The notes under the pieces: model-generated | The model's database searches: none | Told to the model about the DNA's origin: nothing | The model's input: only the letters and a program-made list of their open reading frames with translations | NCBI RefSeq assembly: GCF_001562115.1 | Contig: NZ_CP013926.1 | Coordinates: forward strand, 2,108,001-2,172,000 | DNA: 64,000 bases | Reading direction: 5' to 3' | Origin: Alteromonas stellipolaris | Lineage (GTDB): Bacteria; Pseudomonadota; Gammaproteobacteria; Enterobacterales; Alteromonadaceae | Shown: positions 52,741-64,000 of the stretch, piece after piece | Position numbering within the stretch: the stretch's first letter is position 1 | Layout of the letters: every line of letters starts with the position of its first letter | Position numbers and translations under genes: made by a program

Positions 52741-52764
52741 GCTCGTTGAACAGGCATTGCGAGC
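52741..52764 (+). promoter_or_regulatory. sodB leader hairpin, predicted sRNA target
   Basis: GCTCG (52741-52745) and CGAGC (52760-52764) form a 5-bp stem whose 14-nt loop contains TTGAACAGGCAT. The segment CGTTGAACAGGCAT (52744-52757) is complementary over 14 nt (13 Watson-Crick, one G-U) to the 5' end of the RNA predicted at 63603. It lies 54 bases before the sodB ATG. An unpaired loop that matches a predicted Fur-regulated RNA suggests post-transcriptional control. Confidence 0.5.
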
Positions 52765-52810
52765 TAAAATTAACGTTGTTTAAAAACATTAAACCAACAC
52801 GGAGACCGAT

Positions 52811-53392
52811 ATGGCTTTTGAATTACCAGCATTACCATACGAAAAAAATGCACTTGAACCGCATATTTCTTCTGAAACGCTGGACTATCACTACGGCAAG
52901 CATCACGCTACTTACGTTACTAAATTAAATGGTTTAGTTGAAGGTACTGATTTGGAAAGCAAAAGCCTAGAAGAGATCATCAAGTCTTCTGAAGGCGGTG
53001 TTTTCAACAATGCAGCACAAGTTTGGAACCACACGTTCTACTGGAACTGCTTAAGCCCAAATGGCGGCGGCGAACCTACTGGTGCACTTGCTGATGCAAT
53101 TAATGCAAAATGGGGCTCATTCGCTGATTTCCAAGCTGCATTCAATGACAAAGCAGTGAACAACTTTGGCTCTAGCTGGACGTGGTTAGTTAAAGCTGCT
53201 GACGGCTCTCTAGACATCGTAAATACAAGTAACGCTGAAACACCAATTTCTGGTGACGAGCTTACGCCTGTATTGACTGTTGACCTTTGGGAACACGCTT
53301 ACTACATTGATTACCGTAACGTGCGTCCTAAGTACCTAGAAAACTTCTGGGCACTTGCTAACTGGGAATTTGCTAGCGCGAACTTCGCGTAA
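52811..53392 (+). CDS. sodB: Superoxide dismutase, Fe type
   Basis: Dismutates superoxide in the cytoplasm. 193 aa. The metal ligands are His in LDYHYGKHHATYV (about 27), His in QVWNHTFYWNC (about 74), and the DxxxH in VDLWEHAYYIDY (Asp about 157, His about 161). The sequence AFELPALPYEKNALEPHIS and FNNAAQVWNHTFYW are characteristic of SodB rather than SodA. ATG lies six bases after CGGAG. A structured leader with a predicted sRNA pairing site precedes it. Confidence 0.96.
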   Translation: MAFELPALPYEKNALEPHISSETLDYHYGKHHATYVTKLNGLVEGTDLESKSLEEIIKSSEGGVFNNAAQVWNHTFYWNCLSPNGGGEPTGALADAINAKWGSFADFQAAFNDKAVNNFGSSWTWLVKAADGSLDIVNTSNAETPISGDELTPVLTVDLWEHAYYIDYRNVRPKYLENFWALANWEFASANFA

Positions 53393-62627: not shown

Positions 62628-63221
62628 ATGAAAGCATTTAAAAAAGAACTAAAAGCCATGAAAAAAGGCACTGAGAAGCCCAAAGTGATTGAAGACACCT
62701 TCTCATTTGCTGATGCTATGCAAGGTGTAAAGCCCATTGAGCAGGACAAGATTGTACCGAATAAGAAGGTTGCTCTTGAAAAGAAAAAACAAATGGCAGG
62801 GGTTAAACACCTTAAAGGCAGTAAGCAGGTAGCGGCGAGTTTCAGCTTTTCAGATATGTACCAAGCCGTACTTCCACAAGATGGACCCATGCGGTATTGC
62901 CGAGAAGGCGTGCCGACGCATGTACTAAAGCAGCTTAGACGAGGAGACTATTCCCCTGAGTTTTTGCTCGATTTACATGGTATGACCCGAGAAATGGCAA
63001 AAACCGAAATAGCCTCATTAATTTATGCCGCCCGCAAAGCGTCGGTAGACTGTGTTTCTATTATGCACGGGTTTGGGCAAGGCGTATTAAAAAACGCGCT
63101 TCCCCACTACTTAATACAGCATCCCCACGTGAATGCATTCCACCAAGCGCCCCTTGAATACGGCGGACAAGCAGCATTGCTTGTTTTGCTAGATGTGCCC
63201 ACGCCAGAATATAAGCGATAG
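62628..63221 (+). CDS. smrB: Smr-domain endonuclease SmrB
   Basis: Ribosome-collision endonuclease that cleaves mRNA between stalled ribosomes. 197 aa. The N-terminal hook helix (MKAFKKELKAMKKGTEKPK) is basic, and the Smr domain (about 98-180) has LDLHGMTREMAKTEI and SIMHGFGQGVLKNALPHYL. Divergent from prmB, as in E. coli. The ATG overlaps the end of a short AT-rich leader. Confidence 0.95.
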   Translation: MKAFKKELKAMKKGTEKPKVIEDTFSFADAMQGVKPIEQDKIVPNKKVALEKKKQMAGVKHLKGSKQVAASFSFSDMYQAVLPQDGPMRYCREGVPTHVLKQLRRGDYSPEFLLDLHGMTREMAKTEIASLIYAARKASVDCVSIMHGFGQGVLKNALPHYLIQHPHVNAFHQAPLEYGGQAALLVLLDVPTPEYKR

Positions 63222-63286: not shown

Positions 63287-63412
63287 CTACTTATCAAGCT
63301 CTGCGCTGTTGTGCATAAACATGTATGTGTAAAACACGCCCATTCCAATAATTATACTGATACCTAAAAGCGAGCCCCATACAACGGGATCTGAAATCAT
63401 ACTTAGTAACAT
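63287..63412 (-). CDS. 41-aa membrane microprotein, DUF3149-like
   Basis: Encodes MLLSMISDPVVWGSLLGISI followed by a second hydrophobic half and a polar tail ending in ELDK. One membrane helix (about 9-31). The start SDPV-x-GSLLGIS resembles DUF3149 microproteins of Gammaproteobacteria. The Shine-Dalgarno GAGGAGA is excellent. An FNR-type box is centred about 41 bases upstream of the predicted transcription start, so it is probably expressed at low oxygen and may be an accessory of a membrane respiratory complex (inference). Confidence 0.72.
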   Translation of the reverse strand: MLLSMISDPVVWGSLLGISIIIGMGVFYTYMFMHNSAELDK

Positions 63413-63442
63413 AGTGTTTCTCCTCACAGGGTTAATAAGTTA

Positions 63443-63448
63443 ATGATA
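63443..63448 (-). promoter_or_regulatory. -10 element of the microprotein gene
   Basis: TATCAT on the minus strand, five of six matches to TATAAT. A start near 63436 would place the proximal FNR-type box at about -40.5 to -41.5, the class-II activator position. The -35 box is then replaced by the activator site. Confidence 0.55.
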
Positions 63449-63469
63449 GCGATTTCTTGGGGAGGGTTT

Positions 63470-63483
63470 GTGATCTAGATCAA
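63470..63483. promoter_or_regulatory. FNR/CRP-type box (proximal)
   Basis: Reads TTGAT-CTAG-ATCAC on the minus strand, one mismatch to TTGAT-N4-ATCAA. The wider context (TTTGTGATCTAGATCAAG) also fits a CRP site (TGTGA-N6-TCA). Centred 64 bases before the microprotein start codon. Confidence 0.6.
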
Positions 63484-63519
63484 GTCTGAAATGCGGTAAA
63501 TAAAAGGGTTCTAGAGAAG

Positions 63520-63533
63520 TTGATCGAGATCAA
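63520..63533. promoter_or_regulatory. FNR-type box (distal)
   Basis: TTGAT-CGAG-ATCAA, a perfect FNR consensus palindrome. It is 50 bases from the proximal box and lies between the divergent microprotein promoter and the predicted Fur-regulated RNA promoter, so it could affect either. Confidence 0.7.
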
Positions 63534-63567
63534 TATAGAAATAAATCAAAAATAATTCAAAATGACA

Positions 63568-63596
63568 TTGCAAATCATTCTCATTTGCAATACATT
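63568..63596 (+). promoter_or_regulatory. Promoter of the predicted sRNA
   Basis: TTGCAA (63568-63573), a 17-base spacer and TACATT (63591-63596), each with four of six consensus matches. The spacer holds the Fur box, so Fur binding would block polymerase. Predicted start near 63603. Confidence 0.5.
63569..63583. promoter_or_regulatory. Fur box over the sRNA promoter
   Basis: TGCAAATCATTCTCA matches 11 of 14 positions of the 7-1-7 Fur consensus and lies in the inverted repeat TTGCAAA-N9-TTTGCAA (63568-63590). Position between -35 and -10 predicts iron-dependent repression. Confidence 0.65.
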
Positions 63597-63602
63597 GTAC
63601 AT

Positions 63603-63682
63603 GCCTGTTCGACGTAGGTTAAAAACGGTCTTGGCTTAGCGTCGTAAGGGGAACAGACGCCCGTCTGTTCCCCTCTTTTTTT
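63603..63682 (+). ncRNA. Predicted Fur-regulated small RNA, about 80 nt
   Basis: No ORF or known RNA family was recognised. A promoter with an embedded Fur box precedes it and a strong intrinsic terminator ends it. The 5' part GCCTGTTCGACG is followed by a loose stem (CGACG 63610-63614 / CGTCG 63640-63644) around an A-rich loop, then the terminator hairpin. Positions 63601-63614 can pair with the loop of the sodB leader hairpin (52744-52757) over 14 nt. A second short stretch, CGGTCTT (63626-63632), can pair with GAGACCG at the sodB Shine-Dalgarno (52802-52808). The RyhB core is not present. Existence of the transcript is a prediction. Confidence 0.55.
63648..63682 (+). terminator. Intrinsic terminator of the predicted sRNA
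   Basis: GGGGAACAGACG / CGTCTGTTCCCC, a 12-bp perfect stem, followed by TCTTTTTTT on the plus strand only. No protein gene on the plus strand ends within 420 bases upstream, so the terminator implies a noncoding transcript. Confidence 0.9.
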
Positions 63683-63685
63683 CTA

Positions 63686-64000
63686 TTACTTTGTTGTTTT
63701 ATCAATAATAAAACGTACGCATAATCCCTTGTCTTTTCGGTTTTGAATCACTAAATGGCCATTATGCGCATCGGTAATTTCTCGGCATAGCGCCAGCCCC
63801 AATCCACTTCCATTCGCCTTAGTGGAATAAAAAGGAACCAGCGCATTTGTCATTACGCTATCCGTCATGCCTTTTCCGCTATCGAGGACTTCTATAATCA
63901 CTTGAGAGGCCGTTTGCTTGATAACGAGCTCCACATCCTGTGGGTTTCCTCCCGACTCATGGGCATTTTTCAGTAAGTTAATTAATAGCTGTTCTACTTG
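63686..64000 (-). CDS. Sensor histidine kinase, C-terminal ATPase part (truncated by window)
   Basis: The frame is open to base 64000 and reads through the whole visible stretch, so the start is outside the window; a GTG at 63934 is not the true start. Visible HATPase_c elements: N box QLLINLLKNAHES, G1 DSGKGM, F box PFYSTK and G2 GSGLGLALCREI. The pattern PFYSTKxxGSGLGLAL is that of NtrB/NtrY/ZraS-like kinases, which often pair with RpoN-dependent response regulators. Convergent with the predicted sRNA; its stop is four bases beyond the sRNA terminator. Confidence 0.9.
   Translation of the reverse strand, partial: QVEQLLINLLKNAHESGGNPQDVELVIKQTASQVIIEVLDSGKGMTDSVMTNALVPFYSTKANGSGLGLALCREITDAHNGHLVIQNRKDKGLCVRFIIDKTTK

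Follow-up and report, generated by a model that had tools for sequence, protein, structure and literature searches.

The locus and its promoter

The window analysed here is a 64,000-nt stretch of Alteromonas stellipolaris DNA, read on its forward (+) strand. Its usual neighbours at the locus described below are an smrB-like gene with an Smr domain (62628..63221, + strand), which was assigned from Pfam and synteny and lies outside the predicted RNA, and a small DUF3149 gene (Pfam DUF3149; 63287..63412, - strand); a kinase gene lies by the locus on the - strand. The promoter (63568..63596, + strand) consists of the -35 hexamer TTGCAA (63568-63573), a 17-nt spacer and the -10 hexamer TACATT (63591-63596), of which the T, A and T columns are conserved. 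The palindrome TTGCAAATCATTCTCATTTGCAA, which spans the -35 hexamer and the spacer (63568..63590, + strand), was called a Fur box from its sequence, its consensus matches and its conservation. Against the Fur-box consensus, the top match is 11/14 at 63569-63583 in the 7-1-7 form and 14/19 at 63564-63582 in the 19-bp form. A 19-bp match alone is common, ie 43 sites of at least 14/19 were found in 1.504 Mb of the A. stellipolaris genome, and a simple promoter scan does not report the sRNA promoter, which has 8/12 hexamer matches where the rule is 9. The promoter and Fur-box elements are each weak when judged alone, and it is conservation that gives the locus its weight.

The Fur-box columns are conserved in an alignment of 46 relatives. 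Conservation there also takes in part of the -10 hexamer, lapses over four variable columns and begins again at (U)GCCUGUU. This block stands where the start of transcription would be expected, and +1 is predicted near 63602-63603. In a divergent clade the promoter carries a canonical Fur-like sequence, TTGATAATAATTATCATTTAGATTA. As far as sequence can tell, the element has a Fur box which overlaps its own promoter and is conserved in relatives. A promoter matrix was built from 57 relatives, with the sRNA site itself included, and in 1.50 Mb of the genome that site scored 37.2. Among the next-best sites one (23.3) lies about 90 bp upstream of a TonB-dependent receptor gene; other high-scoring sites are without such a gene, so this gives modest support only.

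Two FNR-like sites, GTGATCTAGATCAA (63470-63483) and TTGATCGAGATCAA (63520-63533), lie 50 bp apart in the interval between the DUF3149 gene and the sRNA promoter. They were called with the FNR motif, and 35 of the 57 relatives have at least one such site in the 260 nt ahead of the RNA. They could possibly place DUF3149, or else the sRNA, under control by oxygen.

Structure of the predicted RNA

The predicted sRNA of about 80 nt (63602..63682, + strand) was delimited by a covariance-model match at 63602-63681, by conservation from +1 and by a two-hairpin fold. The fold has a predicted energy of -34.8 kcal/mol (z = -4.26), which 1 of 200 shuffled sequences equalled. The first eight nucleotides, UGCCUGUU (63602..63609, + strand), form a 5' seed with an unpaired probability of 0.92-1.0. 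Hairpin 1 (63610..63644, + strand), defined by the fold and by covariation, presents the loop seed ACGGUCUUGG (63625..63634, + strand), in which ACGGUC is open and UUGG paired in the predicted A. stellipolaris fold. An intrinsic terminator, evident in the sequence and in a terminator scan, completes the RNA (63647..63682, + strand): a 12-pair stem (63647-63674) is followed by C and seven T. These are the features of a short structured non-coding RNA with an intrinsic terminator. A further match, L002, is no separate locus, being a match of the terminator hairpin to its own opposite strand. The seven T at the 3' end are compatible with Hfq; one Hfq motif gave no match in the 1.50 Mb searched, which is part of the genome only. 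The first-pass annotation of this DNA had described a promoter with a 17-nt spacer, an 11/14 Fur box and a 12-bp hairpin followed on the + strand by a run of T, with no + strand gene ending nearby. Each was found at the position given: smrB (+) stops at 63221 and is followed by the DUF3149 gene (-) and the kinase gene (-).

The anatomy of the RNA was examined in an alignment of 57 sequences, 26 of them distinct. GCCUGUU in the unpaired 5' end and ACGGUCUU in the loop are invariant in all 57, and the leading U is nearly so. The stem of hairpin 1 has been rewritten in the divergent clade, eg GGGUAUCUG with CAGAUACCC. In the 57 sequences 97.0% of the cells are paired, and pairing drops to 25-47% when the partner is shifted by 1-3 columns. 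Changes on both sides were seen in 6 of the 9 pairs, a count not exceptional alone (56/500 shuffles). Cells changed on both sides numbered 30 compared to 7.3 in shuffles, and none of 500 shuffles attained the real covariation score. The terminator stem also differs in sequence between groups of relatives, with the hairpin itself kept.

No Rfam family reached its gathering cut-off at the place of the sRNA. At E <= 10 the region 63400-63720 gave seven weak matches (GibS, HLE and others), all far under their cut-offs and none of them RyhB (RF00057) or PrrF (RF00444). The RF00057 cut-off was reached in 0 of 59 genomes of the genus, in a search with stricter filters for which the E. coli control was positive. 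One genus genome (G165) gave the sole RyhB match below threshold, at 34.3 bits against a cut-off of 55, and this was dismissed as chance. The element is thus a member of neither RyhB nor PrrF by sequence, as had been expected of it, and has no covariance match at gathering. Elsewhere in the window the cspA thermoregulator (RF01766; 38605-39055, - strand) scored above gathering. Among the papers listed in a literature search, none describes this Alteromonas RNA in its title or the opening of its abstract. Since 127 chromosomal small RNAs were counted in Alteromonas Te101 (PMC5864184), it may be an unnamed entry there.

Distribution

The genus is taken here as Alteromonas in the broad sense, represented by 59 genomes, and the element is present in 57 of them. 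The block was found by blastn at E <= 1e-6 in 46 of the 59, and for 11 of the remaining 13 a covariance model built from those 46 located it in the stretch fetched around smrB. One of the two genomes without a call (G199) has a contig that stops short of the expected place. The other (G148) gave no match in a whole-genome search with a second model, a search in which 31 genus genomes match, and the stretches adjoining its smrB contain no 19-bp Fur match above 12/19. The usual place of the RNA is beyond smrB and the DUF3149 gene; smrB is more distant in some genomes, and the genes on the far side vary. It had been said at the outset that an sRNA would be refuted if close relatives had lost the promoter, the Fur box and the hairpin; all three proved to be kept.

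A pattern search of contig records gave 44 records, of which 41 carry the element; those named belong to Alteromonas, Salinimonas, Aestuariibacter and Marisediminitalea. The other three (L108, L119 and L125, from outside the genus) have neither Fur box nor terminator and are compatible with chance. Plasmid records gave no match to the element.

Beyond the genus, the core model has matches in seven genomes of group g5, with E between 8e-4 and 1.8e-3. Four of the g5 loci were read, and they show a box of Fur type, the sequence UGCCUGUU, a loop with CUGGUCCUGG and another strong hairpin. At sdhC, g5 genomes carry AAAACAGGCA in 5/7 and AAAACGGGCA, with a wobble, in 2/7. The single genome of g43 (G043) has UGCCUGUAA at the 5' end of its RNA and UUACAGGCA at sdhC, a matched change at 9/9 positions. 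Hairpin RNAs with a CUGGUC loop follow Fur-box promoters in three genomes of g51 and one of g33; the 5' end of the g51 RNA has no match at sdhC. The hairpin RNAs at the g43, g51 and g33 loci (L007-L011) are different ones; they have a (C)UGGUC loop, a terminator-like hairpin and a Fur-box promoter, and are possibly diverged relatives of the Alteromonas RNA. No acnB site as clear as that of Alteromonas is shared in g5, g43 or g51. Model matches in G040, G211 and G378 were set aside as they have no Fur box upstream.

Predicted targets

The genes sdhC and sodB were picked for testing because they are known targets of RyhB and PrrF. At sdhC, AACAGGCA adjoins the GTG start in 59/59 genomes and is the exact complement of the 5' seed UGCCUGUU; 1 of 200 shuffled seeds scored equally well. 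On folding, the site is more open than the leader average in 59/59. In A. stellipolaris the net energy is roughly -10 kcal/mol with the 5' seed and -3.7 kcal/mol with the loop.

The iron superoxide dismutase gene sodB (52811..53392, + strand; NCBIfam superoxide dismutase [Fe] above cut-off, and Pfam) is a predicted target with two sites. The first, GAACAGGCA at -63 (52748..52756, + strand), extends the complement of the 5' seed by one base and lies in a predicted hairpin loop. The second, GAGACCG at -9 (52802..52808, + strand), is complementary to the loop seed with one wobble. In 29 sodB leaders (30 fetched loci, less L443 and L447, which encode a second type of SOD, plus the window), an equally good result came from 0/200 shuffles of the loop and 7/200 shuffles of the 5' seed. 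The sites were more open than the leader average in 13/13 cases for AACAGGC and 18/25 for GACCG, and in A. stellipolaris the net energy is roughly -10 kcal/mol with the 5' seed and -4.5 kcal/mol with the loop. About 10 kb separate the gene and the RNA in A. stellipolaris, and coordinates put them at a similar distance in several relatives.

Targets were also sought without selection among 1238 crude ORFs from 1.50 Mb of the A. stellipolaris genome, a set which does not include sdhC. In a wobble-aware run-score scan acnB ranked first, and acnB alone has CAAGACCGT in its start region (-80 to +30), where it occurs twice; AACAGGCA occurs within -30 to +3 in 1 of the 1238 ORFs. The conservation of this site was followed in 49 leaders, ie the 59 genomes less nine in which no AcnB match was found at E 1e-100 and less G193, for which the leader was not fetched. 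Scores of at least 8 were obtained for 43 of the 49, with (C)CAAGACCGT or a wobble equivalent, and the real mean was reached by 0/300 shuffled loops. The leader retains (C)CAAGACCGTT while its flanks diverge; G191 has three copies of the site, and in one clade CCAAGACCGU has become CCGGGACCGU, which keeps the pairing with two wobbles. Of the six leaders below 8, that of G148, where no RNA was found, is without a site, as is that of G182, where acnB is interrupted by a stop into two overlapping pieces. G129 has the RNA yet no acnB site, and no such reason; G149 and G189 retain 6 nt and G184 7 nt. For the 5' seed the acnB leaders show no site (120 of 200 shuffles as good). The acnB site was more open than the leader average in 42 of 43 leaders folded, and the loop pairing has a rough net energy of -6.5 kcal/mol in A. 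stellipolaris. In several of the acnB and sodB leaders displayed, the site sits in a hairpin loop on stems that differ. Complementarity to the start regions of iron-enzyme mRNAs has been kept in evolution for sdhC, acnB and sodB.

Other genes gave less clear results. Among the sites listed in the scan, class I fumarase ranked third and leuC sixth. In 51 fumA leaders (8/59 were not fetched) AAGACC occurs in 30, which is not clearly above shuffles (9/300; 10/200), so that fumA is a borderline candidate. Complementarity to the loop region was seen in ccoN (L231:1194-2627), with TAAGCCAAG in its early codons and AGACCGT upstream, and in leuC (L221:4420-5820), with GGCCAAGACC at its start; both are possible further targets, and their sites lie in codons. 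The gene petB scored in one energy scan only. A membrane protein gene, ExbB-like by eye (L210:14322-14840), has AACAGGCA at about -47.

Alternative explanations

The chief alternative is that a Fur-controlled sRNA is made at this locus with other main targets, and that the matches at sdhC, acnB and sodB are features of the leaders themselves, such as ribosome binding and leader hairpins. In its favour, there is no genome-wide excess of sites: the best duplex energies of the 5' and loop fragments against the 1238 ORFs are inside the range of shuffled fragments, and loop sites occur in 40 ORFs compared to 39.6 for shuffled loops (46/100 shuffles as high) and in 31/1029 internal coding windows. 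The sdhC site AACAGGCA is also kept in G148, where the RNA has no match, and AGGCA or GGGCA is found ahead of sdhC in genera where no such RNA was seen, so ribosome binding may account for part of that site. A second element, CCTACGG, lies just upstream of the sdhC site (L350-L379); it is strongly conserved and is similar in some other genera. Against this explanation, three canonical targets fit two constant modules, and the controls, both shuffled seeds and smrB leaders, fell clearly below the values for acnB, sdhC and the loop seed on sodB; the 33 smrB loci with enough flank gave no signal (103/200 and 139/200 shuffles as good). Nor does it readily accommodate the tandem acnB copies and the changes that keep a wobble. 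We consider it unlikely.

Much less likely is that the hairpin is a mere terminator, or the promoter the leader of an unseen downstream + strand gene. That the hairpin is a terminator is certain from sequence; its T run, however, is on the + strand, no + strand ORF of at least 60 aa starts before the end of the window, and the block stays in relatives in which the far-side gene differs. Least credible of all is a short messenger for the peptide MPVRRRLKTVLA, the frame of which is open in A. stellipolaris from a possible start codon at 63601 with an ATG there in 36/57 relatives, but which lacks that ATG in 21/57, varies in frame and length among relatives, and would have to tolerate loops whose lengths vary by single bases.

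Proposed function

It is highly probable that the locus encodes a Fur-repressed, trans-acting sRNA of about 80 nt which spares iron by seed pairing with iron-enzyme mRNAs. Two near-constant unpaired stretches match sites at three iron-enzyme genes, and the RNA therefore probably saves iron. The sequence elements, their conservation, the covariation and the complementarity are results; transcription, Fur control, the direction of regulation and any help from Hfq we infer. When iron is plentiful Fur-Fe would sit on the promoter; when iron is scarce the RNA would be transcribed and end at its own terminator. Its unpaired 5' end, UGCCUGUU, would then pair with AACAGGCA next to the start of sdhC; some of the species have that site also in a hairpin loop of the sodB leader, where the 5' end would pair too. 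For the hairpin 1 loop, ACGGUCUUGG, the partners would be CCAAGACCGU on the acnB leader and the GACCG sites on that of sodB. Such pairing would lower the translation or stability of the iron-enzyme mRNAs, and iron would be saved.

We would give even chances to a wider proposal, in which the RNA represents an undescribed, fast-changing family that is found throughout the Alteromonadaceae, is controlled by Fur and replaces RyhB as keeper of the iron-sparing response. Its 5' end would be a linear seed for sdhC, its loop would kiss the acnB and sodB leader hairpins, and RNA and target would have co-evolved, with UGCCUGUU/AACAGGCA in Alteromonas and g5 and UGCCUGUAA/UUACAGGCA in G043. Constant modules on a rewritten stem, set against kept sites in diverged leaders, would make a natural series for the study of seed-target co-evolution.

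Comparison with known systems

RyhB targets include sdhC, acnB and sodB, and the PrrF1 and PrrF2 RNAs of Pseudomonas form a tandem pair. The Alteromonas RNA resembles RyhB (RF00057) in its Fur-box promoter, its short length, its terminal hairpin and the presence of sdhC, acnB and sodB among its predicted targets. It differs in structure and seeds and has no sequence match. Both sdhC and sodB are given as RyhB-type targets in PMC7377471. In Shewanella oneidensis RyhB is present, and AcnA and SdhA are not under its control according to PMC2964681. The first-pass annotation had guessed at a functional analogy with RyhB, which the conserved complementary sites in the sdhC, acnB and sodB leaders support. 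The Alteromonas RNA is best read as a functional analogue of RyhB, probably of its own family and with no shared sequence. Like PrrF1/PrrF2 (RF00444), which are described as Fur-controlled and iron-sparing with a Fur site directly upstream (PMC7377471), it would spare iron under Fur control; unlike that pair it is single copy in each genome, and it has no Rfam match. The Aln1a-c RNAs of Alteromonas macleodii are small RNAs of the same genus for which CsrA sequestration was proposed (PMC5864184), whereas the RNA described here has constant antisense seeds and a Fur box.

Under iron limitation A. macleodii is reported to decrease most citric-acid-cycle and other iron enzymes, respiratory ones too, and to increase Ni-SOD and fumarase C as iron-free replacements (PMC7190382); the iron-response sections of that paper name no RNA regulator. 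This response fits what such an RNA would help produce, and is not itself evidence for it. Alteromonas is a common marine copiotroph, and if the present reading is true, an RNA family stands in for RyhB in the iron-sparing of a major marine bacterial group. There are parallels elsewhere. BrrF of Burkholderia is likewise a lineage-specific RNA with its own sequence and RyhB-like targets; it is made from the hemP transcript and is without a Fur box or terminator of its own, and the Alteromonas RNA has both (PMC7377471). HrrF and IsrR are described as other unrelated analogues, lineage-specific and with RyhB-like targets. Since its predicted action is RyhB-like and the sequence tests for RyhB and PrrF were negative, the Alteromonas RNA would form an RNA family that is new but belongs to a functional kind already known.
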